Of a stretch of DNA of 20,904 nt, positions 1,080 through 15,026 are shown piece after piece. This stretch comes from a virus. The stretch is from positions 1 through 20,904 of IMG/VR virus record IMGVR_UViG_3300013772_000052; one strand, 5' to 3'. The first letter of the stretch is position 1, and each line of letters begins with the position of its first letter. The notes below the pieces were generated by a model, which saw only the letters and a program-made list of their open reading frames with translations, ran no database searches and was not told the DNA's origin. Made by a program: the position numbers and the translations under genes.

Positions 1080-1090
1080 TTTAAAAGCAA

Positions 1091-1129
1091 ACCGCCCGGT
1101 CATAAGGCGGGTGCTTAGATCCGGGCGGT
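1091..1129 (+). other. perfect 9-bp GC-rich stem-loop after the small membrane gene
   Basis: ACCGCCCGG (1091-1099) and CCGGGCGGT (1121-1129) pair perfectly around a 21-base loop, 11 bases after the stop of the membrane-protein gene. No T-run follows, so it may be an imperfect terminator or a 3'-end stabiliser. With the hairpin at 855-887 it brackets a one-gene cassette. Confidence 0.6.
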
Positions 1130-1221
1130 GAGAATGAGTTAGCTACTTAAACTTGGGGTTTTGCAGCTGTGGACTAGATAGCGTGAAATTCCGCAGCACG
1201 CAATGGGTTAATGGGGGTTTT

Positions 1222-2160
1222 GTGGCAAGGGTGAATTTAGAGGAGCGGCTATTCAGTGAAGCGCGTCTTCATTATTTTTCTGAATTACTAAAAACGACGA
1301 GCCACCAGGCGCTCGGCGTTTTGTCCTATCTCTGGCACGATTCGCAAGAGCTAAAGCGCGCGACCGCATCCAAACGCGAGATCGTGATTTGGTGTCGGTG
1401 GAAAGAGATTCAGTATTACAATTACGACGTCCATGGTGAAAAGCCACCGGATACCGAGCTTATAGCCGCATTAGTTGAGAGCGGCTATATCTCGGAGAGT
1501 GAGCCGGAAGTTTTTCAAATTCATGGCAACGAGGATCAAATTGCAGCGCTTGATACTTATCGGGTGGGAAGTGAAGCGCACCGACTAGCTTCGATATTAG
1601 GCGGAAAAGCGCGAGCCGCATCCGCGCCACGCGATGAGCAAGGACATTTCATTCCAGCCGGAACACCAGCCGACAGCCAGCCGACAGCCAGCCGGAACAC
1701 CAGCCGACAGCCAGCCGGCGGCTGGTCCAGCCACCAGCCGCAATTCAATTCAATTCAATTCAATTCAACTCAACTCAATTCAGAGATACATACGTCGGCT
1801 GTTTCACCAACCCAGCCCGACTTACTCGCCACTTGGAATTTGGAATGCGGTAATATTTGCGGGGCCATGAAGCTTAACGACGATAGACGGCGCGCAATCA
1901 GAGCACGGCTCAAAGAGCATCCCGACCCTGAGTACTGGATAAGTGTCGCCAAACGGATTGCTGCCTCGCCCTTTTGCCGAGGGGAGCGAGGCGGTTGGAA
2001 GGCAAACTTCGATTGGTTTCTAAAACCCAAAACGCATATGAGAGTTTTAGAGGGCCAATACGACGCTAACAAAATAGTCGATTTCAAAACTCAAGCTGCA
2101 CGTTCGCGGGAGGAACACGCCCAATCCCAATGGGAACGGGTCGAGAAAGGCCTACTGTGA
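1222..2160 (+). CDS. phage replication protein with winged-helix-like N-domain and variable linker
   Basis: I place the start at GTG 1222 (GGGGG at 1213-1217), giving 312 residues beginning MARVNLEERLFSEARLHYFS. The opening RVNLEERLFSE with a later LGVLSYLWHDSQ is typical of phage replication-initiation proteins. The frame is open upstream to about 1153. The C-terminal part carries RRRAIRARLKEHPDPEYW, then a GWKANFDWFLKP stretch and VLEGQYD, the usual C-domain of these replisome-loading proteins. Between the domains is a low-complexity linker of about 45 residues encoded by tandem repeats. It overlaps the next gene by 4 bases. Likely role: origin binding or loading of the replicative helicase with the next gene product (family-based inference). 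Confidence 0.75.
   Translation: MARVNLEERLFSEARLHYFSELLKTTSHQALGVLSYLWHDSQELKRATASKREIVIWCRWKEIQYYNYDVHGEKPPDTELIAALVESGYISESEPEVFQIHGNEDQIAALDTYRVGSEAHRLASILGGKARAASAPRDEQGHFIPAGTPADSQPTASRNTSRQPAGGWSSHQPQFNSIQFNSTQLNSEIHTSAVSPTQPDLLATWNLECGNICGAMKLNDDRRRAIRARLKEHPDPEYWISVAKRIAASPFCRGERGGWKANFDWFLKPKTHMRVLEGQYDANKIVDFKTQAARSREEHAQSQWERVEKGLL
1654..1713 (+). repeat. tandem repeat of a 23-base unit in the replication-protein linker
   Basis: CCAGCCGGAACACCAGCCGACAG occurs at 1654-1676 and again at 1688-1710, with a shortened copy (CCAGCCGACAG) between them at 1677-1687. The CCAGCCG core continues to 1717. The 34-base period is not a multiple of three, so the same DNA is read in different frames and encodes different Pro/Ser/Thr/Gln-rich residues. 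Confidence 0.85.
1741..1780 (+). repeat. pentanucleotide microsatellite (CAAYT)8
   Basis: Eight consecutive five-base units: five CAATT, two CAACT and one CAATT, inside the replication gene. The unit length is not divisible by three. Gain of one unit would send translation into a frame that stops at about 1870; loss of one into a frame that stops at TAA 1851-1853. Either way the C-terminal domain would be lost. Confidence 0.9.
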
Positions 2161-2717
2161 CTGACTCGCAAAAGGGTATTAAAAAGGTCCTGATTGGCTT
2201 AGGTGAGTTTTACAACGAGCACCTTAGCGATGCACGCCTAGCAATGTACGCGGCGATCCTAAGCGATTGTGACGCGTGTGGTGTGGAAGAGTCCGCAATG
2301 ACTTTAATGCGCGATCCGACTCAAACTAGAATGCCAGTCGCCGCAGTCATTCGCGACCGCGCAATGGGTTTTTCAAACCCCGATCACGAGGCTATCGAAG
2401 CCGCATCTCGTATCCCCGAGGCAATGAAACGTTTCGGATATCCTGATTCGACTGCCGCCCGCGAATTCATCGGAGAATTGGGCTGGCGTGTGGTTGAGCG
2501 CGAAGGGGGCTGGGAAAAACTCTGTCACCGAGTCACAACCGACCAACTTCCGACGCTCAAAGCGCAGTGGCGCGAGATGGCAAAAGCCGTAAGCGGTCGC
2601 TCCCGCAATGGAAGTGAGGACGCCCCCCGCATTCCGGGCGTATCCGATAAATCACTACGCGTCCTAAAGCTTGCGCGCGGTATCGGCAAAGAGCTTGCGG
2701 CCGGGAAGGACGACTAG
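2157..2717 (+). CDS. probable helicase-loader-like replication protein
   Basis: GTG 2157 overlaps the upstream stop as GTGA and has AGAAAGG six bases before it, so I prefer it to the in-frame ATG at 2130. The 186-residue product starts MTDSQKGIKKVLIGLGEFYN and has a helical N-domain (LSDARLAMYAAILSD), then ALTLM-type helices and PTQTRMPVAAVIRDRAMG. This pattern of a short helical repeat followed by a Pro-Thr rich turn and a helix resembles the G39P-type helicase loaders of phages. The middle (GELGWRVVEREGGWEKLC) and the basic C-terminus fit a protein that binds partners or DNA. Position directly after a replication initiator supports the call. No Walker motif is visible, so it is not an ATPase loader of the DnaC type. 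Confidence 0.5.
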   Translation: MTDSQKGIKKVLIGLGEFYNEHLSDARLAMYAAILSDCDACGVEESAMTLMRDPTQTRMPVAAVIRDRAMGFSNPDHEAIEAASRIPEAMKRFGYPDSTAAREFIGELGWRVVEREGGWEKLCHRVTTDQLPTLKAQWREMAKAVSGRSRNGSEDAPRIPGVSDKSLRVLKLARGIGKELAAGKDD

Positions 2718-2986
2718 TGTTTACGGGCCCGGATAGCTTTTTTTTTCATCGGCTACTAAAACTAAAAACGTTGCACGCAAATCGGGCTGAGAGAACAGGG
2801 AAAGCCGACAAAAAGGAAAATGAGGACGTCAAAGAGATAGAAATCGAAAGCCTCCCCGATGCACTTGAGAAACTCACCGAAGACGAATTGTGGAAGCTTG
2901 GCTCAACCGCTACCGAATTTATTCCCGAATCAGCCATCGAGGGCTACGGCTTAGGGGTTACTCACGGCGGGGAAACCGATGGGTAG
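2717..2986 (+). CDS. acidic hypothetical protein, start uncertain
   Basis: The frame opens with GTG 2717, overlapping the preceding stop by one base, with an AAGGA-type SD at 2706-2710. The first 25 residues are odd (a Phe-rich run encoded across a poly-T tract). The middle is highly charged (KADKKENEDVKEIEIESL), followed by PDALEKLTEDELWKLG. The part from LPDALEKLTEDELWKL looks like a genuine short helical domain. It overlaps the nuclease gene by 8 bases. No known domain is recognised, and an internal start cannot be excluded. Confidence 0.4.
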   Translation: MFTGPDSFFFHRLLKLKTLHANRAERTGKADKKENEDVKEIEIESLPDALEKLTEDELWKLGSTATEFIPESAIEGYGLGVTHGGETDG

Positions 2987-3386
2987 GCGTGGCAAGCCAA
3001 AGTGTGAGTTAGAGGCTGGCCTAGTTTTATCGGTGAAATCTCTTTTGCGAATTCTAAAAGCAGAAAGCCAGACGGGACGTTTGCCACCGTTAGACTGGTG
3101 GAGACGCGACGGAAGGCCTAAGATAGTAAGTGGCCCCGGCGGCACCAAGCGCTTCATCCCATCCGACGACGTCGGGGTAGCAGACTTTGAAGTCGCAATA
3201 TTCAACCGCCCGCGTCTTTGGCTTGAGACGAAAAGCACTACCGGCCGACAGTCAGACTCCCAAAAGAAATTTCAAATAGCAGTCGAAGCAATTGGCGATA
3301 AATACGTTTTGATTCGTTCCATGGCGGATTGTGAGGCAGCTTTAAGGCTTCACGGTATCGAGCACTGGTCTTTGTCTCATCGTTAA
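2979..3386 (+). CDS. VRR-NUC-like (PD-(D/E)XK) nuclease
   Basis: A 135-residue protein from ATG 2979 with GGGGAA at good distance upstream. The C-terminal half matches the compact VRR-NUC fold: an acidic residue in GVADFEV (D69), then LWLETK (E83, K85), then SDSQ (Q95), then KYVLIRSMADCEAAL. These correspond to the D, ExK and Q of the PD-(D/E)XK nuclease centre. Such proteins in phages are structure-specific or Holliday-junction-type endonucleases acting in replication and recombination. The family size (roughly 90-140 residues) fits. Its position among replication genes supports this. The N-terminal 40 residues show no known domain. Confidence 0.75.
   Translation: MGRRGKPKCELEAGLVLSVKSLLRILKAESQTGRLPPLDWWRRDGRPKIVSGPGGTKRFIPSDDVGVADFEVAIFNRPRLWLETKSTTGRQSDSQKKFQIAVEAIGDKYVLIRSMADCEAALRLHGIEHWSLSHR
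3228..3242 (+). repeat. 15-bp direct repeat, copy A (copy B at 3388-3402)
   Basis: ACGAAAAGCACTACC occurs here inside the nuclease gene, over the codons of its catalytic ExK lysine. It occurs again, identically, at 3388-3402, just after the stop codon of the same gene. The two copies are 160 bases apart. This could be the scar of a local duplication or recombination. Confidence 0.8.
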
Positions 3387-3387
3387 A

Positions 3388-3402
3388 ACGAAAAGCACTA
3401 CC
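3388..3402 (+). repeat. 15-bp direct repeat, copy B (copy A at 3228-3242)
   Basis: Exact second copy of ACGAAAAGCACTACC, in the short intergenic gap between the nuclease gene and the TTG-started gene at 3422. Confidence 0.8.
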
Positions 3403-3421
3403 AAAAATTGGAGTCCATAAC

Positions 3422-3676
3422 TTGCGTGAGATAACTCTGTCTCGTTTGGAAGTTGAGGCACTAGTGCGGCCGGCCCCTCTGGCCGAAGTCTTAGACGCGC
3501 TTAAATCCCATGGAAGCATTAGCGATTGGGAAGAGACCAAAGGTGTAGTGCGCGTGTGGGCACAAAGGCGCCTTGAAATGTTTTTCGTGATGGAAGAGGC
3601 GGCTATTATCCCCGAGGCTCCCTTAAGCCAATACGAGCGCAATAAAACCAATACCTCGAAGCGGCCGGTGAGATGA
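3422..3676 (+). CDS. hypothetical protein, 84 residues, TTG start
   Basis: TTG 3422 is preceded by GGAG with an 8-base spacer, which makes this rare start credible. The product (MREITLSRLEVEALVRPAPL...) has a helical first half, then a possible beta strand VVRVWAQRRLEMFFVMEEAA, and a basic tail ending KRPVR. I recognise no family. The stop overlaps the next start (ATGA), indicating coupled translation with the helix-turn-helix gene. Confidence 0.5.
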   Translation: MREITLSRLEVEALVRPAPLAEVLDALKSHGSISDWEETKGVVRVWAQRRLEMFFVMEEAAIIPEAPLSQYERNKTNTSKRPVR

Positions 3677-4023
3677 ATCACCGAGATGCAAAATTTAAGG
3701 CCTTACAAGCCAAGTGGTATGAGCGATTAAAACAGGCAGGCTTTGAGGACGTCGAAATTACTACCACTCGCCTTGACTACCGCAACGCTATCTATCGCGA
3801 CAGGATGGCGGTATCTGACTATTACAGCGCTGCCGCGGACTTTCTACACCAGGGCGAATTCGACACCGCTCGGGAGCGCGATATCTGGGCGCTGCACACC
3901 GACGGCTTGTCGCACCGTGAGATAGTGCGAGCACTTCATTGCACGCGGTGGGCCGTGGAAGCTGTCCTTGCAAAATACCGCCCGAAGGCCGGCCTTAAGC
4001 CCAGACAGCGCCCCGTAAATTGA
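3673..4023 (+). CDS. small helix-turn-helix DNA-binding protein
   Basis: 116 residues from ATG 3673, overlapping the previous stop. The N-terminal half is helical and charged. The C-terminal half reads ERDIWALHTDGLSHREIVRA and continues LHCTRWAVEAVLAKYR. The pattern (helix, DGLS turn, REIVRALHCT recognition region, AVEAVLAKYR) is a sigma-region-4 or phage late-regulator-like HTH. In phages such proteins just before the terminase genes often control late transcription; whether it does here is inference. Its last codons are made from copy 1 of the CCAGACAGCGCCCC repeat. Confidence 0.6.
   Translation: MNHRDAKFKALQAKWYERLKQAGFEDVEITTTRLDYRNAIYRDRMAVSDYYSAAADFLHQGEFDTARERDIWALHTDGLSHREIVRALHCTRWAVEAVLAKYRPKAGLKPRQRPVN
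4001..4014 (+). repeat. dispersed CCAGACAGCGCCCC repeat, copy 1
   Basis: The 14-base core lies at the 3' end of the helix-turn-helix gene and encodes part of its Arg-Gln-Arg-Pro end. It is preceded by GGCCTTAA, which also precedes copy 4. Unlike the other three copies it is not followed by an obvious gene start and shows no clear hairpin. Copies 2, 3 and 4 lie at 4099, 7642 and 11104. Confidence 0.85.
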
Positions 4024-4038
4024 GAGTGAGTGTGTGTG

Positions 4039-4095
4039 ACCACGGGGCTTTTCAGGGTTTGAGGTTGCTTCTTTTTCCCGGTCAAGCCCCGTGGT
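4039..4095 (+). other. 12-bp inverted repeat in the gap before the GNAT-like gene
   Basis: ACCACGGGGCTT (4039-4050) pairs perfectly with AAGCCCCGTGGT (4084-4095) around a 33-base loop. The loop includes a pyrimidine-rich stretch (GCTTCTTTTTCCC). The element is enclosed by copies 1 and 2 of the CCAGACAGCGCCCC repeat. It could be a terminator, a regulatory leader, or an inserted repeat unit. Its right arm overlaps the left arm of the hairpin predicted at copy 2, so the two folds exclude each other. Confidence 0.7.
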
Positions 4096-4127
4096 TGACC
4101 AGACAGCGCCCCCAAGCTTGTGAGCCA
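4092..4127 (+). repeat. dispersed repeat copy 2 with possible start-codon hairpin
   Basis: The core CCAGACAGCGCCCCC spans 4099-4113. The sequence around it can fold: TGGTTGACCAG (4092-4102) against CTTGTGAGCCA (4117-4127), with two mismatches and one G-U. This leaves ACAGCGCCCC at the start of the loop and GTG 4120-4122 in the stem. No SD is visible upstream of that GTG. The motif is certain; folding and a regulatory role are inference. Confidence 0.6.
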
Positions 4128-4551
4128 AGTTGACGCAATCGAGATTCATGCCGGCACTGAGATCCACGTGCCCTTTGTTTTAAGCTCTTGGCTTAAAACT
4201 TACAAATACTCTTCTCCTTTTGCCCGGCGCATTAGGAATGAGATTTACTATAAGCGCCACCACGCAATTGCGACGGCCATCTTAAACAGAGCGTCAACCA
4301 AAGTTTACATCGCTACACCCAAAGGGGAGCCGGATGTCTACTTGGGTTACCTCGTTATTGAGCGCTCAGCTTTTGCGGTTATTCATTTTTGCTACGTGAA
4401 GACAAGTTTCCGGCGCTTAGGAATTATGTCGGCTCTTCTTAAAGCCGCTCGTATCGTGCCCGAAGGCTCACGCTATACTCATCGCACTTATGACGTGGAT
4501 TGGCTCGATGATAAGTATCCCGGCCTGATTCACGATCCTTACTTACTCTGA
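4120..4551 (+). CDS. GNAT-like phage protein
   Basis: 143 residues from GTG 4120, with no SD but with repeat copy 2 ending six bases upstream. The centre shows an N-acetyltransferase-like core: VYIATPKGEPDVYLGYLVIE, a strand AVIHFCYVKTSFRRLGIMSA and a helix LLKAARIV. The YVK-x-x-(F)R-x-x-GI pattern is the acetyl-CoA-binding loop region of GNAT-fold proteins common in phage late regions. The N-terminus (WLKTYKYSSPFARRI) also matches that phage family. Substrate unknown. It opens a run leading into the terminase genes. Confidence 0.6.
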   Translation: MSQVDAIEIHAGTEIHVPFVLSSWLKTYKYSSPFARRIRNEIYYKRHHAIATAILNRASTKVYIATPKGEPDVYLGYLVIERSAFAVIHFCYVKTSFRRLGIMSALLKAARIVPEGSRYTHRTYDVDWLDDKYPGLIHDPYLL

Positions 4552-4562
4552 AAGGTACCCCT

Positions 4563-4751
4563 ATGACCAAACACGAACGTCTCGTTACCCCGTGCCGCAC
4601 TATCGAAGAGATTAATAAAGAATATTCCCAGGTCTGCATGGCCATGGGTGACTTTCTAATGAAAGCATTTCACGCGCATTCGCACGCGGTAAAGCTTGAG
4701 TCGGAAGCCACCGCCGCAAAAGCGCGTGAGGTTAAAATTGAAAAGCCTTAA
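4563..4751 (+). CDS. hypothetical protein, 62 residues
   Basis: ATG 4563 has AAAGG eight bases upstream. The product (MTKHERLVTPCRTIEEINKE...) appears wholly helical with an Ala/Lys/Glu-rich second half, possibly a short coiled coil. The 3' end overlaps the next gene. No domain recognised. Confidence 0.5.
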   Translation: MTKHERLVTPCRTIEEINKEYSQVCMAMGDFLMKAFHAHSHAVKLESEATAAKAREVKIEKP

Positions 4752-4968
4752 AGACGCTAAGATCATGAAGTTTGCAAGCCACGTCGGCGTTCACTTGCTG
4801 GGCCATGTACGCACCTGGGTCTCAATCGGTAATGACGGCGTTGAAGAGATCTCAATGCAACCCATGGGGATCTACGTAAAGCAAACCTGGCAGGGTAAGT
4901 TGAAAGAGCTAATCGTGCCCTACCCTAACTGCCACCAGATAGACTTGTTTCCTGAAGAAAAAGAGTAA
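4738..4968 (+). CDS. hypothetical protein upstream of terminase
   Basis: I choose TTG 4738 because GAGG lies six bases upstream. ATG 4765 would give a product starting MKFASHVGVHLLGHVRTWVS and is the alternative. The sequence is beta-rich (HVRTWVSIGNDGVEEI, GIYVKQTWQGKLKELIVPYP) and ends DLFPEEKE. I know no function. It overlaps its upstream neighbour by 14 bases and ends exactly one base before the next start. Confidence 0.5.
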   Translation: MKSLKDAKIMKFASHVGVHLLGHVRTWVSIGNDGVEEISMQPMGIYVKQTWQGKLKELIVPYPNCHQIDLFPEEKE

Positions 4969-5271
4969 ATGAAAGGCAAAAAAACGGGGGGCCGCAAAAA
5001 AGGCACACCCAATAAATCAACGCTCAATTTGCAAGAGCGCCTTGATACCCTGGGCTTTGACGCAGTCGATTGGCTCGTCGCGGGACTAGGCTCGATGCCG
5101 CCCTTTCAGCAAGTCGACGCGCTTTTAAAACTCATGGAATTTCTTTACCCCAAACGCAAAGCTATTCAGGTTGATTTAAAAACGCTCACCGATGCCGAGC
5201 TGGTAGCCATCGTTGAAAATCGCCTCACCGAGTTACTCCCCTCATCGGAGACGGATGAAACAGCCCACTGA
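4969..5271 (+). CDS. small terminase-like protein
   Basis: 100 residues from ATG 4969, immediately after the previous TAA, with AAAAAGAG upstream. The N-terminus MKGKKTGGRKKGTPNKST is a basic GGRKKGTPNK segment found in phage small-terminase-like proteins. The rest is helical, with LLKLMEFLYPKRKAIQ, also typical. Small terminases recognise the packaging site and recruit the large subunit. Its location directly before, and overlapping, the large terminase supports the call. No enzymatic motif is expected. Confidence 0.65.
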   Translation: MKGKKTGGRKKGTPNKSTLNLQERLDTLGFDAVDWLVAGLGSMPPFQQVDALLKLMEFLYPKRKAIQVDLKTLTDAELVAIVENRLTELLPSSETDETAH

Positions 5272-7138
5272 GCTTTACCAGGCGTTTTTAAAAGCAGCGC
5301 GCCCTCGGGAGTTTAAACTCGAAGACTTTTGCTTTGATAAGCAATTGGCGTTCGTTACAGATCCAGAGTCATTTGCAACCGGCGTATGCGGTCGGCGAAG
5401 CGGGAAGACGATTGCTTGTGCCGCAGATCTCATTTACACGGCAACACAGCGCCCCGGGGTAACCTGCCTTTACATCACGCTCTCGCGCGCCAACGCTAAG
5501 CGCATTATTTGGCCAGAGCTTCTTCGCATCAATCGCCACTATAAGTTTGGAGGCCATCCCGATAATACCGAGCTTTCCCTTAGCTTTGCCAATGGCTCAA
5601 TCATTTACGCCTCGGGCGCAAAAGATTCCTCGGAAATTGAAAAGTTTCGCGGCTTGGCCCTGGCACTAGTCTATATCGATGAGTCGCAATCGTTTAGGCC
5701 CTACATACAGCAATTAATCGACGATGTGATTGCCCCCGCCCTATTCGATTACAACGGCCGGCTTCGGACCATCGGAACACCCGGCCCCGTGCCGGCGGGA
5801 TTCTTTTTTGAAATAGGCAAAAGCGCCCAGTGGTCGCACCACTCGTGGACGATGTTTGATAACCCGTGGCTTTTAAAAAAGAGCGGGAAGACGCCGCAAG
5901 AGCTACTCGAACGCGAGCTAAAGCGCCGCGGAGTAACGGTTGACGATCCCACTATTCAACGCGAGGTATTCGCCAAGTGGGTCGTGGATTTTGAATCGCT
6001 ACTTTTTAAATATAGCGAAGAGCTAAATCATTACGACAAACTCCCTTATACCAAAGCAAACTACGTTATTGGTGTGGATATCGGACATGACGACGCCGAC
6101 GCAATTGCAACCATCGGGTGGAGTGAATTTCTGCCTGAGGCTTATCTTGAAAATGAGATCGTCACGACTAAGCAAGGTATCACCGAGCTTGCAAACCAAA
6201 TTCAAGCTGAGATAGCACGAGTGGGTGAAAACAGTGTTCTCTCAATCGTCATGGACACGGGCGGCTTGGGCAAAAAGATTGCGGTCGAAATTCGACAGCG
6301 CTTCGGCATTCCAATTGAGGCGGCTGAGAAATCGCGCAAGTTTGAGTATGTGGAACTGCTTAACGACGCTATGCGCACGCGCAGGTTTCGCGCGAAAAAA
6401 GATTCGCGCTTTGCACAAGACTGCTTACTCGTGGAAAAAGAGATTGATCTAACCCAGCCCGACAAAATAAAAGTTTCCGATAAATACCACTCTGACGTGT
6501 GTTTTGTGGCCGGGACCTTGATAGCAACGCATCGAGGCGAAATCCCGATCGAGATGGTTCGCGTAGGCGATTTGGCCCTCACAAGAGACGGTTACAGGTC
6601 GGTCGTTGCCAGCGGAAAAACTGGTGTCGAAAGCGAAGTACTGGAGCTTGAATTTTCAAATGGGAGTGTGCTCACATGCACACCGAATCACCCTATTTAT
6701 CGACGTGACTTCGGCGATTTTGTTGCCGCTGACGCATTGCTTTATGGCCATAGGGCCGCTATAAATCCCGCATGGGAAAATCCAGTGTCACTTTTATATG
6801 CGCAAAACAGTTCCGAGCTAATAAGTATGCCGAGCCAAGGTTTTGCAGCCGCTCTTGTGCGACGACGAACAAAAATCGGGAAAGACACCGTCTTTAACAT
6901 TACCGTCGCCGGAAGCCCCGAGTACTACGCAAATGGCGTGCTCGTACACAATTGCGACGCGGTTCTATATGCCTTTCGCAAAAGCCTACACTGGCTATCC
7001 GAACCCGAAAGCCCCATCCTTATCCCCCAAACCCACGCGTGGAACCTCGAGCAAGAAAAGCGCATGGAAGAGCGCGCGGAAGAAATGCTTCGGGAAAAGT
7101 TAGATGCCCAAAACCAATGGGATGAGTGGGGAAACTAA
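5255..7138 (+). CDS. terL: terminase large subunit (packaging ATPase/nuclease), intein-containing precursor
   Basis: 627 residues from ATG 5255 (GGAG four bases upstream, 17-base overlap with the small terminase); an upstream in-frame start at 5213 is less likely. ATPase features: Walker A CGRRSGKT (45-52), Walker B ALVYIDE (137-143), coupling motif GTP (174-176). Nuclease features: acidic residues in VIGVDIG (D275), VMDTGG (D334) and HSD (D414). Right after HSD-V an intein of 151 residues (416-566) interrupts the third motif, which resumes as CDAVLYAFRK. Removal would leave a mature protein of 476 residues, a normal length. It translocates DNA into the prohead and cuts it. Confidence 0.95.
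   Translation: MKQPTELYQAFLKAARPREFKLEDFCFDKQLAFVTDPESFATGVCGRRSGKTIACAADLIYTATQRPGVTCLYITLSRANAKRIIWPELLRINRHYKFGGHPDNTELSLSFANGSIIYASGAKDSSEIEKFRGLALALVYIDESQSFRPYIQQLIDDVIAPALFDYNGRLRTIGTPGPVPAGFFFEIGKSAQWSHHSWTMFDNPWLLKKSGKTPQELLERELKRRGVTVDDPTIQREVFAKWVVDFESLLFKYSEELNHYDKLPYTKANYVIGVDIGHDDADAIATIGWSEFLPEAYLENEIVTTKQGITELANQIQAEIARVGENSVLSIVMDTGGLGKKIAVEIRQRFGIPIEAAEKSRKFEYVELLNDAMRTRRFRAKKDSRFAQDCLLVEKEIDLTQPDKIKVSDKYHSDVCFVAGTLIATHRGEIPIEMVRVGDLALTRDGYRSVVASGKTGVESEVLELEFSNGSVLTCTPNHPIYRRDFGDFVAADALLYGHRAAINPAWENPVSLLYAQNSSELISMPSQGFAAALVRRRTKIGKDTVFNITVAGSPEYYANGVLVHNCDAVLYAFRKSLHWLSEPESPILIPQTHAWNLEQEKRMEERAEEMLREKLDAQNQWDEWGN
6500..6952 (+). other. mini-intein within the terminase nuclease motif
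   Basis: A 151-residue in-frame protein-splicing element. It starts with Cys1 in CFVAGTLIATHRGEIPIEMV (block A). It has TPNH (T61, H64; block B). It ends in VFNITVAGSPEYYANGVLVH followed by Asn151 and the +1 Cys of the host protein (blocks F and G). His150 and Asn151 are the usual residues for Asn cyclisation. There is no room for, and no sign of, a LAGLIDADG or HNH homing endonuclease, so it is a splicing-only mini-intein. Expected junction: HSD-V joined to CDA-VLYAF. All key splicing residues seem present, so I expect it to be active. Confidence 0.93.
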
Positions 7139-7147
7139 TTACTATTT

Positions 7148-7333
7148 GTGACGCCTAATAACAAAATCTCAAAGACTGGCCAATCAAGCCCCGCCAATTT
7201 GGTTCTTATGCCGTGTAAAAATGGTAGCTTTAATGCAGTCCAGTGCACGAGGATCACAGATCCAAACACGCAAAAACTCTTAGCCATCGGAATTATACGT
7301 GATGACCGACGAGACAAATGTGAGCGAACATAA
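7148..7333 (+). CDS. doubtful small ORF between terminase and coiled-coil gene
   Basis: A 61-residue frame from GTG 7148 (MTPNNKISKTGQSSPANLVL...), with the purine-rich stretch too far upstream (about 14 bases) for a good SD. The middle, MPCKNGSFNAVQCTRITDPN, has two cysteines and could be a small beta domain. It overlaps the better-supported gene at 7302 by 32 bases. It is kept because it would otherwise leave a 160-base gap in a dense genome; it may well be non-coding. Confidence 0.3.
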   Translation: MTPNNKISKTGQSSPANLVLMPCKNGSFNAVQCTRITDPNTQKLLAIGIIRDDRRDKCERT

Positions 7334-7625
7334 CTCGTGGGCAGAATGGTCACGTCACGTGCTTAAAGAATTAGAGCGGCTCAACATTAAATTCGAAAGC
7401 CTGCAGCTCGACATGCACGCGCTAAGAAACGACATGTCTAAAATAGACGACATCCGAGACTGGAAGCGCTCGCTAGAAAAAGAGATCTCAGTCAAAGACA
7501 TTTCACAGCTCCGCGGAGATCTCGACCGCCTGAAAACTTTTAAGACGCAGGCCGTAACCATTTGGGTTGTGATTCAGGGTGCAATGGCAATTGCTACCGC
7601 CATGTCATTTAAGCTGGTTCACTAA
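7302..7625 (+). CDS. coiled-coil protein with C-terminal membrane helix
   Basis: 107 residues from ATG 7302 (a GTG just before it is in frame). The N-terminus MTDETNVSEHNSWAEWSRHV leads into a long helical heptad-like region (LKELERLNIKFESLQLDMHA and onwards, residues 18-75). The end (VTIWVVIQGAMAIATAMSFK) is a hydrophobic helix near the C-terminus, so the protein is probably tail-anchored in the inner membrane. Similar HNSWAEWSRHVLKELERL proteins with a final membrane segment are widespread in phages, sometimes near lysis genes. Possible lysis or entry function is inference only. Confidence 0.65.
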   Translation: MTDETNVSEHNSWAEWSRHVLKELERLNIKFESLQLDMHALRNDMSKIDDIRDWKRSLEKEISVKDISQLRGDLDRLKTFKTQAVTIWVVIQGAMAIATAMSFKLVH

Positions 7626-7632
7626 AAACCGC

Positions 7633-7676
7633 GGCATCATTCCAGACAGCGCCCCCTGGTTTGAATGATTGATGCC
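7633..7676 (+). repeat. dispersed repeat copy 3 with start-codon hairpin
   Basis: The core CCAGACAGCGCCCCC spans 7642-7656. Possible fold: CCAG (7642-7645) with CTGG (7656-7659) closing a ten-base loop ACAGCGCCCC. The stem extends by TCATT (7637-7641) with AATGA (7664-7668) and GGCA (7633-7636) with TGCC (7673-7676), with two bulges on the 3' side. The ATG at 7665-7667 lies inside the stem. There is no SD. This is the best-formed of the three start-codon hairpins. Confidence 0.65.
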
Positions 7677-7922
7677 AAAAAGCTTAAAGAAATACTCAAA
7701 GTCGTAATCAAACACCGCGTCAAACGCCTAAAAACTACCGATTTCGAAATCGAGCTTTTTGAAGCGGCGTTGGTCCATGGCCACCCGGTCGATAGGCCAC
7801 GTGCTGCGCCTCAAATGCGTGTCGTGGAAGAGCCCGAAACCCCCATGCCGAGTGATGAGGATTTCCTTTACTGGTCGTCTGGTTTTGACCCGGCCGGTGA
7901 AAAGAAAGGTGGGGCCGCCTAA
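7665..7922 (+). CDS. small conserved protein preceding portal
   Basis: 85 residues from ATG 7665 (an in-frame alternative is not evident). No SD; the start codon is in the repeat-copy-3 hairpin. The basic N-terminus (KKLKEILKVVIKHRVKRLKT) is followed by FEIELFEAAL, a proline-rich middle and PSDEDFLYWSSGFDP. Small proteins ending in (P)xDED(F/L)LYWSS sit just upstream of portal genes in related podovirus-like genomes, as I remember them. The stop overlaps the portal start (TAATG), so its translation could set portal levels. Function unknown. Confidence 0.6.
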   Translation: MIDAKKLKEILKVVIKHRVKRLKTTDFEIELFEAALVHGHPVDRPRAAPQMRVVEEPETPMPSDEDFLYWSSGFDPAGEKKGGAA

Positions 7923-9808
7923 TGGACTACAAAGAATTATCCGGGAACGCGCCCCCTGCCGTATCGACAGGCTCAAAGCGCTGGTGGGAATTGCCCGAAC
8001 GCGAAATGGCCGATGCCATCACGGGTATCATTACCTTTTTGGGCGACCAGCAATCAGATAGGGATATGCAAGACCAAATATCCGCACGCCTATACGGCAA
8101 CATGAATCTTGTCGGCTCAAGAGGTGTGCGTTACGCGAAATCGTCTTCCGCCGGCACCCCGTTTAAAGACCGATTGTCTTTCAATATCGTGCAATCGTGT
8201 ATCGATACGGTGCAATCAAAAATTGCGAAGAATAAACCCAAGCCGCTCTTTCTTACCTCCGGCGGCGATTACAAAATTCAACGCCGCGCTAAAAAGCTCG
8301 ATAAGTTTGTGGAAGGCGTCTTCTATGAGAATCAGGTTCACGCTAATAGCCCAATCATCTTTCGCGACGCCTGCGTCTTCGGCACTGGCTGCACTTATGT
8401 TTACAACGCGTTTAACCGAGTCAAACACGAGCGCGTTTATCGGGGTGAGCTTTTAGTCGATGAGACGGAAGCCTTTTACGGGGATCCGCGCTCTATTCAC
8501 CGCGTGAAGGATATTGATCGCGACGTGCTTCGCGAAATGTTTCCGGCCAATGAATTCCCCGGCGCGCAAAAGCTAATCACCAACGCGCCTGGCGTGACTG
8601 AGCCCGGCGTTCCGAATCTGGCTGACCTCGTGCGCGCAAGAGTCAGCTGGCACTTGCCTTCTGGACCTGACGCCAACGACGGCCGGTGGGCCTTTACCTT
8701 GGAAAACGGGACTCTGGAAAAAGGTATTTGGGATAAGCCATATTTCCCCTTCGCATTCTTTCACTGGAATAAGCGCCTCTTTGGTTTTTGGGGCCAAAGT
8801 GCCGCCGAGCAATTGCAAGACACCCAACTTGAGATAAACAAACTACTGTGGATAATTCAGCGCTCGTTTCACTTGGCCGGCTCTTTTAAGATCTTGCTCG
8901 AGACCGGATCAAAGGTCGTAAAAGAGCATATAAATAACGACGTGGGCGCGGTCATTAATTACACCGGCACCGAGCCCAAATACATCGTGCCGCCCGTTTG
9001 CCCGCCCGAATACCTGACGCAGGTACAAACCCTAATTCAGCGCGGCTACCAACGCTTAGGCGTTAGCGAGCTCTCGGCTGCGTCTAAAAAGCCCGATGGC
9101 CTAGACAGTGGCAAGGCGCTTCGCGAGTACAACGATATCGAGTCAGACCGCTTCATGACCGTGGGCCAAGCCTACGAGCAATACCATATCGACCTTGGCC
9201 GCCTTGATATCTCGGTGGGGCGCGACATCTATAAGGATAAGGGAAAGTTTGCGGTCAAAGTGCCGGGTAAGAAATTCGTTGAGACCATCGACTGGAAAGA
9301 CGTCGATATGGAAGACGACCAATTTATAATGAAAGTGTTCCCCATCTCGTCTCTGCCTAATGATCCTAGCGGTCGCCTCTCAACGATTCAGGAATACGCG
9401 CAGGCCGGATACATCTCAGCACGTGTCGCGCGCCGTGTTTCTGACTTCCCAGACATTGAGCGAGTCGAGGATATGGAAAATGCGGGCGAGGATTACTTAC
9501 ACGAGATCCTAACCAAAATGGTCGACGACGGTGAGTACACGCCGCCCGAGCCATTCGATAAGCTAGACATTGCAAAAGAATTGGTCCTTGAATACTACGC
9601 CTACGCAAAGCTGACTGGAGTGGAGGAGGAAAAGCTCGACCTACTCAGAGAATTCAACGCGCAGGTTGACGCGCTCACCGGCAAAGCAACCGCACCGCCG
9701 CAGCCGTCGCCATCGCCAGGCGTAGGACCTAGTCCCGGTGCCACGCCGCAAGCGCTCCCCATGGCGCCGCCACAATCGGATTTACTGCCTAATGCGCCGG
9801 GAGTTTGA
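7922..9808 (+). CDS. portal (head-tail connector) protein
   Basis: 628 residues from ATG 7922, overlapping the previous stop. Portal proteins form the dodecameric ring at the capsid vertex through which DNA is packed and the tail attaches. Supporting features: size, position between terminase and scaffold, and podovirus-portal-like sequence (KDRLSFNIVQSCIDTVQSKI early, then IIFRDACVFGTGCTYVYN, FFHWNKRLFGFWGQSAAEQL in the middle, and ELSAASKKPDGLDSGKALRE). The last 50 residues are Pro/Ala/Ser-rich and likely disordered (PPQPSPSPGVGPSPGATPQA). No frame break. The fold assignment rests on pattern recognition and gene order. Confidence 0.85.
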   Translation: MDYKELSGNAPPAVSTGSKRWWELPEREMADAITGIITFLGDQQSDRDMQDQISARLYGNMNLVGSRGVRYAKSSSAGTPFKDRLSFNIVQSCIDTVQSKIAKNKPKPLFLTSGGDYKIQRRAKKLDKFVEGVFYENQVHANSPIIFRDACVFGTGCTYVYNAFNRVKHERVYRGELLVDETEAFYGDPRSIHRVKDIDRDVLREMFPANEFPGAQKLITNAPGVTEPGVPNLADLVRARVSWHLPSGPDANDGRWAFTLENGTLEKGIWDKPYFPFAFFHWNKRLFGFWGQSAAEQLQDTQLEINKLLWIIQRSFHLAGSFKILLETGSKVVKEHINNDVGAVINYTGTEPKYIVPPVCPPEYLTQVQTLIQRGYQRLGVSELSAASKKPDGLDSGKALREYNDIESDRFMTVGQAYEQYHIDLGRLDISVGRDIYKDKGKFAVKVPGKKFVETIDWKDVDMEDDQFIMKVFPISSLPNDPSGRLSTIQEYAQAGYISARVARRVSDFPDIERVEDMENAGEDYLHEILTKMVDDGEYTPPEPFDKLDIAKELVLEYYAYAKLTGVEEEKLDLLREFNAQVDALTGKATAPPQPSPSPGVGPSPGATPQALPMAPPQSDLLPNAPGV

Positions 9809-9841
9809 CCAACCTCGCGCAAAGGTTAAAGCTGCCCAAAA

Positions 9842-10543
9842 GTGCTAACCGAGGAAAAAGCGCGAAAGCTTCTAGCGAGGGCTCTACTAAGTGCAAGACG
9901 AAAAGGATTTAGCGAACATGCAGAAGATATTGCTCAAGACGTTTTGTGCTCGTTCGCGGCTGGCCACGGGAAACACCAATCCGTTGACCAAGCAGTTATC
10001 GACGCTATACGCCGAATGTTCGGAAGGTCGAGGCTGGGCGGCCATGATCAGCGATTCGCTCTCAATAACCCGGAAGAGTTTGATGAAACGAAATGCGAGT
10101 ATTCAAATCGACATGCTGATGTCATGTCTCTGGAAAATCGACGAGATTACGAGCGAGCTATTGGAATACTTGAGGGATTAGAGCGTGCAATCGTTATCCT
10201 CAGATACGAGTGGGGCTTCAAGGAAACTGAAGTGGCACATTGTTTTGGAGTTACAGAGTCTCAGATATGTAAAAGGCTCACCGGAATACAGGCGCGCCTA
10301 TCACGCGCGATGGCGCGAGAGGAACCAAGAGAAGGTTCGCGAATATTCGAAACTGAAGCAAAGGCAGCGCCGTGCAAATCCCGAAGCCCGCAAAGCCGAC
10401 AATGCGAAGTGGCGAGATTGGGCAGCGAAAAAAGAGGAAGTAGTGCCGGGTTGGCGCGCGAATCGAATGACGGCCTGGAGGAAGAGGAACCCTTCTCTAT
10501 GGAAAGCTCTTATGAAGCGAGCTTCGATGAATGGCTTACATAG
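9842..10543 (+). CDS. sigma-70-family-like transcription factor with overprinted C-terminal tail
   Basis: 233 residues from GTG 9842 (AAAGG about 15 bases upstream, so initiation is weakly supported). Residues about 10-60 look like sigma region 2 (LLARALLSARRKGFSEHAED followed by IAQDVLCSFA, then QAVIDAIRRMFGRSR). Residues about 106-157 look like region 4 (LEGLERAIVILRYEWGFKET, then EVAHCFGVTESQICKRLTGI and QARLSRAM). Such small ECF-like factors direct host RNA polymerase. The last 76 residues after ARLSRAM are low in recognisable structure and share DNA with the gene at 10185 in another frame. The conserved core is only about 157 residues. Region 4 alone could also be a non-sigma HTH regulator. 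Confidence 0.65.
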   Translation: MLTEEKARKLLARALLSARRKGFSEHAEDIAQDVLCSFAAGHGKHQSVDQAVIDAIRRMFGRSRLGGHDQRFALNNPEEFDETKCEYSNRHADVMSLENRRDYERAIGILEGLERAIVILRYEWGFKETEVAHCFGVTESQICKRLTGIQARLSRAMAREEPREGSRIFETEAKAAPCKSRSPQSRQCEVARLGSEKRGSSAGLARESNDGLEEEEPFSMESSYEASFDEWLT

Positions 10544-10733
10544 GCGCTGGTACAAAAAACATAGGAGCCAAAAGCTTGAGTCATCCAAAAGACGATCCCA
10601 GAAACTTAACCCGCTCCACGGGCTCAAACGGCTTATCTACGCCGTTGCCACAGGCAAACGATCCGCAGAAAACCTTGTCCAGGAATATAGCCGAGCACTT
10701 ACTGCACTTGATGAAAGAAGTGACGAACGATGA
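10185..10733 (+). CDS. Arg/Trp-rich basic protein with YxxRWRExNxEK-type repeats
   Basis: 182 residues from GTG 10185, which has GAGGG eight bases upstream inside the sigma-like gene. The segment EYRRAYHARWRERNQEKVRE and the later RRANPEARKADNAKWRDW resemble the (Y/W)RExNxEK(v)RE basic repeats that accompany phage HNH and other nucleic-acid-binding proteins; no HNH catalytic core is visible. The rest is Lys/Arg/Trp-rich with a helical end (NLVQEYSRALTALDERSDER). Probably binds DNA or RNA. It overlaps the sigma-like frame by 359 bases and the next frame by 203 bases, an unusual arrangement. Confidence 0.55.
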   Translation: MQSLSSDTSGASRKLKWHIVLELQSLRYVKGSPEYRRAYHARWRERNQEKVREYSKLKQRQRRANPEARKADNAKWRDWAAKKEEVVPGWRANRMTAWRKRNPSLWKALMKRASMNGLHRRWYKKHRSQKLESSKRRSQKLNPLHGLKRLIYAVATGKRSAENLVQEYSRALTALDERSDER

Positions 10734-10830
10734 GGTAAATCCGAAGACCGTCAACGCCGCCTGCCAGTGCGCAGCAGAGCTCTATAAGGTGATGAAGCTG
10801 AATCTTGAGATGAAAAGGCACAAAATATGA
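10531..10830 (+). CDS. small phage protein, N-terminus uncertain
   Basis: 99 residues if ATG 10531 is used; an internal start is possible, because the first half shares DNA with the basic protein in another frame. The second half, RNIAEHLLHLMKEVTNDEVN then PKTVNAACQCAAELYKVMKL and NLEMKRHKI, is a well-formed helical unit, including a TVNAACxCAxELYKxMKLNLEMK signature I associate with small phage structural-region proteins. No SD is obvious at 10531. It ends ATGA into the next gene. Function unknown. Confidence 0.55.
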   Translation: MAYIGAGTKNIGAKSLSHPKDDPRNLTRSTGSNGLSTPLPQANDPQKTLSRNIAEHLLHLMKEVTNDEVNPKTVNAACQCAAELYKVMKLNLEMKRHKI

Positions 10831-11096
10831 AGACCCCACGCCACAAGGAATATCACACGCGCTACTTCACGATTTACGTGCAGTTTCCAGACGGCGAAGA
10901 GTGGTGCGCGCAAGTGCCTTTCATCCAAGACCTGTCGTTTCAGCTAAAGCAAACGAAGTGGAACCCGGATATCTGCCGAAAGCTTTTAAAGCACGGTGAA
11001 GCGCACTGGAAGGACGCCCACAACGGCGTCACTCACCGCGTTGTAGTTGACGATGTCACGCGCCCCCGCAAGTGGGGAAAGAATGGGATGAGATAG
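10827..11096 (+). CDS. hypothetical protein, 89 residues
   Basis: ATG 10827 overlaps the previous stop. The product (MKTPRHKEYHTRYFTIYVQF...) is compact, with tryptophans and histidines (EEWCAQVPFIQDL, HGEAHWKDAHNGVTHRVVVD) and a basic end (RPRKWGKNGMR). The mix of strand and helix suggests a small globular protein. No recognised family. It ends exactly where the GGCCTTAA that introduces repeat copy 4 begins. Confidence 0.5.
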   Translation: MKTPRHKEYHTRYFTIYVQFPDGEEWCAQVPFIQDLSFQLKQTKWNPDICRKLLKHGEAHWKDAHNGVTHRVVVDDVTRPRKWGKNGMR

Positions 11097-11099
11097 GCC

Positions 11100-11126
11100 T
11101 TAACCAGACAGCGCCCCCCTAGTTAA
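11100..11126 (+). repeat. dispersed repeat copy 4 with start-codon hairpin
   Basis: Core CCAGACAGCGCCCCCC at 11104-11119. TTAACCAG (11100-11107) can pair with CTAGTTAA (11119-11126) with one mismatch, leaving a loop of ACAGCGCCCCC. The A of the scaffold ATG (11126) is the last base of the stem. No SD precedes the ATG. The whole gap between the two genes consists of this element. Confidence 0.65.
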
Positions 11127-11977
11127 TGGAAGTCACCGCAAGCGAAGTATTGGCCCAAGCCCAACCCTCGTCAGTCACCCCGAGCCCGCAAGTCACAGAT
11201 CCAAAAGGCGCGCCGCAGGTTACCGAAGAGGCGCCAAAGCCCGAGCTAAAGGAACAACTTTCACCGCGATTTGCGCAGCTAGCGCACCGCGAAAAGAAAA
11301 TTCAAGTAAAAGACCGCGAAGTCAAAGCGCGCGAGCAACAACTAGTTGAGCGCGAGGGACGAATCTCGCAGTTCGAAGAGGCCAAGTCTAAGGGCGACAT
11401 TCCCAAGGCGCTAGAGCTTTTGGGACTTTCCTACGACCAGATCACCAATTTCTTTTTAAACGGCGAAAAACCCACACCTGAAATGACCGCACGCCAAGCG
11501 GCGCGAGCAGAGATTGAAGCGGAGCGCAAACGACAAGAAGAAGAGCGCAAAAAGTCGACCGAAGAGACGTCCAAAAAAGCGCGCGAAGAGTACGAGCAAA
11601 CGCTTCAAGAATACCGCGAAAAAGTTAATGCCTACATTTCAGATAACGCCGCCACCTACGAATTAATCGAGCTTCACGAAGCAAATGAAGTAGTTCTCGC
11701 CACGATAGAACAACACTACCAGGACACTAAAGAGATACTCACCGAACAAGCCGCTTGCGACTTGGTCGAGAAATATCTTGAGGACCGGGTGGAAAAAGCA
11801 ACGCAAACTAAGAAATTCCAAGCAAAGGCACAGCCGCAGCCTAAAGCGGACAATTCGCCATCTAAATCAGCGCCGCCACGCACCTTAAATAACCAACTAA
11901 CCCCAAGTGCAAATACATCACGACCTTTGAGTCGCGAAGAGCGCATCAAGCGCGCCTTGGCGGTCGGGAGATCCTAA
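11126..11977 (+). CDS. scaffolding protein
   Basis: 283 residues from ATG 11126; no SD, start codon at the edge of repeat-copy-4 hairpin. The protein is strongly charged and helical: a disordered Pro/Ser N-terminus (1-45), a long coiled coil (about 55-90, KDREVKAREQQLVEREGRIS), then Glu/Lys/Arg-rich helices (EAERKRQEEERKKSTEETSK). The tail is basic and ends SREERIKRALAVGRS. Such composition directly upstream of the major capsid gene is characteristic of scaffolds, which guide procapsid assembly and bind capsid through a basic C-terminal helix. Scaffolds must be made in large and controlled amounts, which makes the odd leader notable. Confidence 0.8.
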   Translation: MEVTASEVLAQAQPSSVTPSPQVTDPKGAPQVTEEAPKPELKEQLSPRFAQLAHREKKIQVKDREVKAREQQLVEREGRISQFEEAKSKGDIPKALELLGLSYDQITNFFLNGEKPTPEMTARQAARAEIEAERKRQEEERKKSTEETSKKAREEYEQTLQEYREKVNAYISDNAATYELIELHEANEVVLATIEQHYQDTKEILTEQAACDLVEKYLEDRVEKATQTKKFQAKAQPQPKADNSPSKSAPPRTLNNQLTPSANTSRPLSREERIKRALAVGRS

Positions 11978-12003
11978 TCGGGTTTCCAAAGAAAGTTTAA
12001 CAA

Positions 12004-13221
12004 ATGCCGAATCAGATTTTTGATACAACTGCGGCCAACAACGTCTTGAAAGAGCTATACGACGGGCAACTTCCCGAAAACATGGTCTACATGGATCGCC
12101 CTTATTTCGCGATGGTCGAAAAGAAAACCGACTTCGGCGGACGAAACTATCCAATCCCCGTCGAATACGCGGTGAACCAGGGCCGCAGCTCCAATTTCGC
12201 AACCGCGCAAGCCAACGCGTCGGCTAACCAGTTTGCGGAATTCCTTTTGACCCGCGTCTCTGATTACGCAATCGGCTACATCTCTAACGAATTGCTCCTT
12301 GCCGCAACGACTGATCGCGAAAGCTTCATTCGCTCGGCGACGAATATCGTCGACGGCACCATCACTTCCGGTACAGCCTCTTTGTCGTCAGCCCTTTTCC
12401 GGTCGGGCACGGGCACCATCGGTCAAGTGTCGACCATCACTGCCGGCGTTATCGTGTTTGCCGATGCAAACCAAGTGACGCAGTTTGAGAAAAACATGGT
12501 TATCCAGGCCAATGCGACTGACGGCGGAACGCCGCGCGCAGCCCTTGGATATGTCGTTGGTCGTAACGCGTCTGCGGGAACCATCACAGTCTCGGCAACG
12601 TTCGGTGGCGCCGCCGGCACTCCTGCAGGCTGGCTCGCAAACGATTACCTCTTGGTACAGGGCGACAATAACGCCAAGGTCAAAGGCTTGGCCGGCTGGT
12701 GTCCAGTGGTCGCGCCCGTGCCCGGTGATAACTACTTCGGTGTGGATCGCTCGGCTGATTCTCGCCTCTACGGTATCTATTACAACGGAGTGGCGCAATC
12801 CATTGAAGAGGCGCTCGTGGACTCTTCAACGCTCCTTGCTCGTGAAGGCGGACGGCCTGACGTGGCAGTGCTCCCCTTCTCGTCTTACGGCGCGTTTGAG
12901 AAGTCGCTTGGGTCGAAAGTCCAGTACGTGGACTTGCAAAAAGGCGAAGTCGCCTTCCGAGGCGTCGTTATCAACGGAGCGAAGAAACAAATACAGGTAT
13001 TCCCGGATAAGGATTGCCAGGGAGCAACGGCTTGGTTGCTGACGATGAAAACTTGGAAGCTTTGCAGTCTCATGGAAGCGCCGATGATCCTTAAATACGG
13101 CTCTAACGACGAGATGCTTCGCGTTTACAACGCCGACCAGGCGGAGCTCCGAGTCGGTATGTACGGCAACCTTGGTTGCTCGGCGCCGGGTTGGAACGCT
13201 CAAGTCGCTCTCAGCGCGTAA
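12004..13221 (+). CDS. major capsid protein
   Basis: 405 residues from ATG 12004 (an AAAGAAAG stretch about nine bases upstream). The N-terminal part (NNVLKELYDGQLPENMVYMD, TDFGGRNYPIPVEYAVNQGR) is followed by an Ala/Gly/Ser/Thr-rich beta domain (about 105-225) that probably forms an outer insertion. The C-terminal part (SSYGAFEKSLGSKVQYVDLQ, then MEAPMILKYGSNDEMLRVYN and QAELRVGMYGNLGCSAPGWN) is typical of podovirus major capsid proteins with HK97-like fold. Position after the scaffold and before small head genes agrees. No protease or decoration domain is fused. Confidence 0.85.
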   Translation: MPNQIFDTTAANNVLKELYDGQLPENMVYMDRPYFAMVEKKTDFGGRNYPIPVEYAVNQGRSSNFATAQANASANQFAEFLLTRVSDYAIGYISNELLLAATTDRESFIRSATNIVDGTITSGTASLSSALFRSGTGTIGQVSTITAGVIVFADANQVTQFEKNMVIQANATDGGTPRAALGYVVGRNASAGTITVSATFGGAAGTPAGWLANDYLLVQGDNNAKVKGLAGWCPVVAPVPGDNYFGVDRSADSRLYGIYYNGVAQSIEEALVDSSTLLAREGGRPDVAVLPFSSYGAFEKSLGSKVQYVDLQKGEVAFRGVVINGAKKQIQVFPDKDCQGATAWLLTMKTWKLCSLMEAPMILKYGSNDEMLRVYNADQAELRVGMYGNLGCSAPGWNAQVALSA

Positions 13222-13234
13222 TTATTGAAAGTCA

Positions 13235-13260
13235 CGGGAGTGGGCGAAAGCTCACTCCCG
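13235..13260 (+). terminator. strong GNRA-tetraloop hairpin after capsid gene
   Basis: CGGGAGTGGGC (13235-13245) pairs with GCTCACTCCCG (13250-13260) over 11 bp with one G-U pair and a GAAA tetraloop. It lies 13 bases after the capsid stop and 17 before the next ATG. Only a weak T-run follows, so it may act as an incomplete terminator or as a 3'-end stabiliser that lets capsid message accumulate. Confidence 0.55.
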
Positions 13261-13277
13261 GCTTTGAAAGGTAACTT

Positions 13278-13664
13278 ATGGCAAACAGAAATTTTAGTCA
13301 GTTTCAGCTAACGCTTGAGAAAACACCAGTTTCGCTTTGGGGCCGATATACCGTGGGTGCAACGGGTGCGCCGACCATCGATATACCTAACTCTAAGGGC
13401 ATCAAGTCGATAGTGCGAAACGGCGTCGGTAAATACACCATCACGCTGCAAGACACTTACATTAGGCTTTTGGGTTTTAATTTCTTATCGGTCTTTGCTA
13501 CACCCGCAGCGATTAACTGTTTTGTGGTTTCCGAAAGTGTTGGGACTTTGGCAGCGCCGACGATCGTAGTGCAGTTCCAAAGTAGCGCCGCTATAAACGT
13601 AGAGCTTGCTAACGGCGAAGACATTCGGCTGCAGCTTGAGCTTAAACAATCCTCGGCGGTGTAA
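13278..13664 (+). CDS. small virion-type protein after capsid
   Basis: 128 residues from ATG 13278 with GAAAGG upstream. It begins MANRNFSQFQLTLEKTPVSL, then IDIPNSKGIKSIVRNGVGKY and TITLQDTYIRLLGF. This is a beta-rich protein of a family common in podovirus head regions just downstream of the capsid gene. Possible role as decoration or head-completion protein; exact function unknown. Confidence 0.65.
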   Translation: MANRNFSQFQLTLEKTPVSLWGRYTVGATGAPTIDIPNSKGIKSIVRNGVGKYTITLQDTYIRLLGFNFLSVFATPAAINCFVVSESVGTLAAPTIVVQFQSSAAINVELANGEDIRLQLELKQSSAV

Positions 13665-13666
13665 CT

Positions 13667-13912
13667 ATGATTTTTCCTGACGCTAAGAAAGCGGCAACGG
13701 TCATTCTCTCTCGCTCTAAAGGCGAAGGGGATAACACCAGCATGCCGGTAAAGTCCGAAGTGAATATGGATGGCGATGATTCGGCGGGCCTTACAGCTGC
13801 CGCTGAAGACATCATGCAAGCGTTTCACGATAAGTCGGTTGAGGGTTTGAAGTCCGCACTAAAAGCATTTGTCTCGCAGTGCGACGACGACGAGCCTGAA
13901 GGCGACGAATAA
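13667..13912 (+). CDS. small acidic phage protein
   Basis: 81 residues from ATG 13667, two bases after the previous stop. It starts MIFPDAKKAATVILSRSKGE and ends LKSALKAFVSQCDDDEPEGD. The AAEDIMQAFHDKSVEGLKSA helix and acidic end match a family of small phage proteins (KKAATxILSxxK at the start, AAEDI-x-x-A...ALKAF near the end) often found between capsid and tail genes. Function unknown. Confidence 0.6.
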   Translation: MIFPDAKKAATVILSRSKGEGDNTSMPVKSEVNMDGDDSAGLTAAAEDIMQAFHDKSVEGLKSALKAFVSQCDDDEPEGDE

Positions 13913-13943
13913 AATAATTCATGTGCCCTCATGAAGAATAGGC

Positions 13944-13978
13944 CCCCCGTTTGAGTTTTATTTTTTCTCAAGCGGGGG
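13944..13978 (+). terminator. stem-loop, probable terminator of the head operon
   Basis: CCCCCGTTTGAG (13944-13955) pairs with CTCAAGCGGGGG (13967-13978), with one G-U, around an 11-base T-rich loop. It is followed by ATCTCTTTCCCC rather than a clean T-run. It lies between the small acidic gene and the adaptor gene, in the longest gap of the structural region (97 bases), so it likely reduces or ends read-through from the capsid genes. Confidence 0.55.
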
Positions 13979-13996
13979 ATCTCTTTCCCCGTCCTC

Positions 13997-14006
13997 GAGG
14001 TACCTC
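13997..14006 (+). promoter_or_regulatory. palindromic ribosome-binding site of the adaptor gene
   Basis: GAGGTACCTC is a perfect ten-base palindrome containing the SD (GAGG) of the gene at 14009. A CTCGAG sequence abuts it on the left (CCTCGAGGTACCTC). It may form a dimeric protein-binding site. Length is short, so chance is possible. Confidence 0.35.
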
Positions 14007-14008
14007 AC

Positions 14009-15018: not shown

Positions 15019-15026
15019 GGTAAACA

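Follow-up and report, generated by a model that had tools for sequence, protein, structure and literature searches.

The described elements that would come closest to the one reported here are the SAS repeats of the cluster K mycobacteriophages, the SAS-like repeats of phage Mordin, and the stoperator-like asymmetric repeats of L5, T1 and Stevie. First, the cluster K SAS are asymmetric 13-bp sequences that stand 3-7 bp before start codons, in a single orientation with rare exceptions; they occupy the position of the ribosome-binding site (RBS), include the Shine-Dalgarno (SD) core AGGAG and are found in 11-19 copies before non-structural genes, with a minority of copies within ORFs. They are lineage-specific and their function is unproven (PMC3203893, PMC12699233). 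Second, Citrobacter phage Mordin carries in its left arm eight copies of a 26-bp SAS-like repeat, which contains GGAG, before hypothetical genes (PMC4611695). Third, the stoperators of mycobacteriophage L5 are asymmetric 13-bp sites, more than 20 in number, bound by a known immunity repressor (PMC9283540), and T1 and Stevie have 16-20 copies of 22-bp asymmetric repeats with an A/T-rich consensus, predominantly intergenic and oriented with transcription (PMC4319613; see also PMC11447400). The asymmetric intergenic repeats of T1/Stevie and TLS have been likened to the stoperators of L5 (PMC4319613, PMC9283540, PMC11447400).

A pattern search of the window, namely the whole 20.9-kb stretch of DNA from an uncultured phage analysed here, returned four mismatch-free copies of the 14-mer CCAGACAGCGCCCC, at 4001, 4099, 7642 and 11104, all on the + strand. 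The last three had been listed in the preliminary description, which overlooked the first as well as a bare core within the terminase gene. The copies, and this core, are as follows:

4001-4014, + strand: motif copy A, CCAGACAGCGCCCC, found by pattern search, with its frame taken from the translation.
4099-4113, + strand: motif copy B, CCAGACAGCGCCCCC, found by pattern search.
7642-7656, + strand: motif copy C, found by pattern search.
11104-11118, + strand: motif copy D, found by pattern search.
5446-5455, + strand: bare core ACAGCGCCCC within the terminase gene, in TQRPG codons; positions 5442-5455 agree with the motif at 12 of 14 bases.

Copies B, C and D share a C as fifteenth base. Copy A lies 98 bp 5' of copy B, within the final codons of ORF 3673-4023 (RQRPVN-stop), and no convincing gene start is found 3' of it, but only a 37-codon ORF (4020-4133) opened by a TTG at 4020, 5 nt 3' of the copy. 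Past the motif, the four copies agree in two Ts and one G (P about 0.0015, calculated post hoc), the TT standing 5 nt after the motif and being followed by the start codon, and none of the 20 columns 5' of the motif is identical across copies. Not one of 300 codon-preserving shuffles held any 14-mer at four copies, the maximum being three copies, reached in 3 of the 300, and ACAGCGCCCC occurred in them either once or not at all; similarly, a 14-mer with four copies was found in none of 200 order-4 Markov sequences. The repeat is real and beyond chance, and it is probably a control signal. The core within the terminase gene lacks the downstream TT, and its QRP residues fall at a variable position of the protein that is not conserved among relatives; judged on its sequence, it is probably a chance occurrence and unlikely to be a true member of the motif. 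Since this core and copy A both lie in coding sequence, ACAGCGCCCC is not restricted to gene starts.

The repeat is placed in a run of genes, mainly on the + strand, that extends from 903 to 20663 and holds a late-gene order: an HTH-like ORF (3673), a GNAT-like ORF (4120), ORF 4969, the terminase large subunit (TerL, 5213), ORF 7299, ORF 7665 and the portal gene (7922), continued by a sigma-like ORF (9842), ORFs 10531 and 10827, a gene in the scaffold position (11126) and the major head protein gene (12004). The genes next to copies B, C and D are the following:

4120-4551, + strand: GNAT acetyltransferase-like gene (Pfam Acetyltransf_1), 3' of copy B.
7665-7922, + strand: 85-aa ORF 3' of copy C, which precedes the portal gene and has homologues in relatives.
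7922-9808, + strand: portal gene (PHROG portal protein).
11126-11977, + strand: gene in the scaffold position, 3' of copy D, whose homologues adjoin the major head protein gene.

No family match was found for the gene in the scaffold position (11126-11977). The elements had been said to stand before the terminase, portal and scaffold/capsid runs; the copy at 4099 precedes the GNAT-like ORF, with the terminase three ORFs further on.

The 15-mer ends 6 nt before GTG 4120, 8 nt before ATG 7665 and 7 nt before ATG 11126, so that its spacing from the start codons is as first described, the 14-mer matching exactly at each site and the further C always following it; its first base stands 21, 23 and 22 nt 5' of these codons, respectively. 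Positions 19-25 nt before gene starts make up about 1.1% of those on the + strand, and three of the four copies fall there (binomial P about 5e-6). The distance from the upstream stop codon to the motif varies from 7 to 75 nt, and copy A precedes its stop. Given this variation and the tight spacing of 6-8 nt on the other side, the anchor of the element is the downstream start.

That the three genes have no SD, unlike most of their neighbours, was borne out: pairing with the anti-SD over the 22 nt before the start amounts to 0.1 (4120), -2.2 (7665) and 0.4 (11126) kcal/mol, among the weakest values of the window, whereas the remaining starts lie mostly between -3 and -10 kcal/mol. Among relatives, an anti-SD pairing of -5 kcal/mol or stronger precedes 12 of 17 scaffold-position homologues and 11 of 17 GNAT homologues, with SD sequences such as GGAGATAAAATG, these figures depending on called starts and on start calling that is crude. 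In this lineage the RBS position of the three genes is taken by the motif, an SD being nearly absent there. The major head protein gene (12004) has no SD either (-0.9 kcal/mol), yet it also has no motif, which means that SD-less starts in this phage do not need one.

We tentatively favour, with somewhat less than even confidence, an element that controls translation initiation, is tied to gene starts and is recognised as a specific linear sequence, because of the four exact copies on one strand, the start spacing of 6-8 nt and the near-complete loss of the SD. What is conserved is the sequence and not a hairpin: the linear, asymmetric 14-15 nt, CCAGACAGCGCCCC with or without the final C, stand where three late genes would have their RBS and replace the SD, and a factor of the phage or the host, either a protein or a small RNA, would recognise them in the mRNA. 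Such a factor would set the timing or the strength of initiation for these three genes and for those translationally coupled to them; we infer both the action at the RNA level and the co-regulation of the three runs. A run of nine or more pairs between the motif and the 16S or 23S rRNA of E. coli, a stand-in that may not be the host, was not found, so that no ribosomal target is evident. Copy A, at the end of an ORF and with no convincing start after it, speaks against an effect on translation alone; the start spacing and the loss of the SD speak against one on DNA alone. One factor that reads a shared cis element at the late runs had been proposed before; placement, single orientation and SD loss fit this idea, whose structural half fails, as described below. 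In a stronger form, in which a dedicated factor of this tailed phage would read the C-rich 15-mer independently of an SD and so switch the GNAT, portal and scaffold/capsid runs together at translation, the idea is unlikely.

The structural half held that each of the three sites forms a hairpin, with altered stems that retain their pairing and with the same sequence exposed in the loop, as would suit a translational operator. In agreement with this, copy C folds well, its start codon standing in the 3' arm of a hairpin (7633-7676) that about 3% of shuffles reach, and a stem peculiar to this copy may exist. Copy C is, however, alone in this respect: scored against shuffles, neutral windows yield z of -2.38 for C, +0.95 for D, 0.00 for B and -0.55 for A; within the boundaries originally proposed, C has -2.35, D -0.28 and B -0.76. 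For pairing between the 13 nt before the core and the 25 nt after it, the share of all positions that do as well is 1.3% at C, 19% at B, 56% at D and 65% at A. Moreover, flank pairing summed over the three sites gives -28.3 kcal/mol with the sites' own partners and from -21.4 to -30.9 kcal/mol in the five swapped arrangements, that is, swapped flanks pair equally well. The CCAG of the 5' arm is invariant, and its 3' partner, which may be CTGG, CTAG, CTTG or GTAA, does not covary with it. A stem kept through compensatory change below an exposed loop, the mark of an RNA hairpin translational operator, was not found here, one copy out of four folding better than shuffles; in the minimum-energy fold of C the ACAGC portion of the supposed loop is partly paired, and hence the conserved sequence does not correspond to a shared exposed loop. 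Comparison with shuffles, with swapped flanks and with the rest of the sequence thus gives no support to a hairpin family, which we reject, and we regard an operator hairpin with a conserved loop as very improbable. No Rfam family was matched at gathering score in the window.

A structure of a different kind lies between copies A and B:

4038-4096, + strand: long hairpin with a 13-bp stem, GACCACGGGGCTT/AAGCCCCGTGGTT, and no T-run (strand folding, -33.9 kcal/mol, z -4.84, reached by 0 of 200 shuffles).

The 37-codon ORF mentioned above (4020-4133, TTG start) spans this hairpin and extends across the GTG that opens the GNAT gene. Long G+C-rich inverted repeats were also seen by eye in other intergenic gaps, at 740-830, 860-885, 1090-1130, 13237-13262 and 13935-13985.

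The motif can also be considered as coding sequence. Read as AGA-CAG-CGC-CCC, copies A, C and D and the terminase core share the phase of the ORF that precedes or contains them. The three copies then give RQRPxx-stop just 5' of the next start (4001-4023, 7626-7664 and 11097-11126), although translation of C and D would need readthrough of a TAA or TAG. Because none of the four codons differs between copies even where a synonymous change would be silent, we take the constraint to lie on the nucleic acid; this identity, together with the readthrough that C and D would need, disfavours conservation at the level of an RQRP peptide. A bolder variant of the dedicated-factor idea, in which the motif would act during its own translation, A, C and D being in phase, is much less likely.

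The distribution of the motif was evaluated in 96 related loci (1.25 Mb; 34-62% protein identity), collected by scans with the portal, major head protein, tail protein and TerL sequences; a scan with the scaffold-position gene found no relative. The search of related genomes that had been suggested as a check of the motif gave nothing start-associated in any of the 96. The 9-mer ACAGCGCCC occurs five times in these loci, on both strands, compared with about 9.5 expected, and an 11-mer common to at least three gene starts was found in none of the relatives, save for one weak case (L142). Across the viral-contig collection there are at least 119 single matches to the 14-mer, with no start association, which are apparently due to chance, and an ATG-anchored scan of the collection gave 21 contigs with one match each. 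Isolated phages gave no DNA match to the region, only distant terminase matches, and a genome search returned a single match, a contig of a bog Deltaproteobacteria MAG that is without the motif. By these comparisons the motif is lineage-specific, and it is known from one incomplete genome, a fragment where related contigs extend to 35-57 kb.

Such a distribution, together with the perfect identity of copies that are all at gene joints, would fit a recent spread by duplication or recombination of identical short linkers at module boundaries, with no regulatory function, and the stretch of 84 bp between copies A and B, which contains a hairpin, looks much like a small insertion flanked by its repeats. 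However, identity ends sharply at 14-15 bp and the flanks are unrelated, and neutral linkers would leave both the constant start spacing and the SD loss unexplained. We consider this explanation improbable.

Further features were seen along the run. The terminase large-subunit ORF (5213-7138) contains a Hint/intein domain at 6503-6955 (Pfam Hint_2, 2e-8), and an end related to that of this intein was found only in L006/L230, which are one contig. An ECF sigma-factor-like ORF (9842-10543; Pfam Sigma70_ECF, 5.9e-5) stands between the portal gene and ORF 10827; a scan of viral contigs found no relatives of it, and in L006 the homologue of 10827 directly follows the portal gene. Within ORF 1153-2160, short tandem repeats were seen by eye, namely GACAGCCAGCCG-like units at 1672-1735 and CAATT/CAACT units at 1740-1790.

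When compared with the systems described at the outset, the element resembles the cluster K SAS in being a short asymmetric repeat with a single orientation, placed a few nt before several starts at the RBS position in B, C and D, with A, inside an ORF, as the exception to this placement; like SAS, it is specific to a lineage. Unlike them, CCAGACAGCGCCCC has no SD core, which the SAS consensus GGGATAGGAGCCC does have; it is C-rich and situated in the structural region, with four copies in a partial genome, and the two sequences are unrelated. Nor is it conserved across related phages, as SAS are, being missing from the 96 loci. It differs from the Mordin repeat in being shorter (14-15 versus 26 bp) and in having no GGAG, and from the T1/Stevie repeats in being shorter, fewer in copies and not A/T-rich. 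It is of the same kind as these repeats, but its sequence, its lack of an SD core and what is known of its conservation place it outside SAS.

It is the likeness to the L5 stoperators that raises the main rival to the element we favour, namely a stoperator-like or operator site in DNA, at which a phage regulator would bind the asymmetric 14-mer and, depending on orientation, block or modulate transcription of the late operon. Just as the sites of L5 and T1/Stevie, the 14 bp are asymmetric, mostly in short intergenic gaps and always oriented with transcription, with copy A in a coding end; the location of A and the A-B spacing of 98 bp are easier to reconcile with a protein bound to DNA than with an RBS, and candidate regulators are the HTH-like ORF (3673-4023) and the ECF sigma-like ORF (9842-10543). 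Against this, neither a repressor nor an integrase was found among the window ORFs scanned, and there are four copies in a 20.9-kb part, compared with the more than twenty of L5. Furthermore, spacing from the start codon is not a defining trait of the L5 sites, and a DNA site does not require start codons at 6-8 nt or replacement of the SD. A site of this type is possible but, on balance, rather doubtful.

The sigma-like gene within the run (Pfam Sigma70_ECF, 5.9e-5) also allows the motif to be read as a promoter element, for instance for this very factor, giving late mRNAs with short leaders or none, and the 6-8 nt from the end of the motif to the start codon are similar to the interval that separates a -10 box from its start point. 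Such a promoter would nevertheless consist of a single block, as no second conserved block was found upstream (0 identical columns in 20), and sigma-70-like sites are not in excess (6 found, 7.9 expected), neither sigma-70 promoters nor terminators exceeding shuffles in the window. The chance of a promoter is slimmer still than that of an operator hairpin.

Only a few phages are known to carry start-associated repeats, the function of which is unproven after more than a decade. Were the present repeat a DNA operator or the scar of recombination, it would matter little, and its interest is modest, coming as it does from the reading of one incomplete genome at the sequence level. If it is the start-associated element that we favour, a repeat that replaces the SD altogether would allow an action of such elements on translation to be tested more cleanly.
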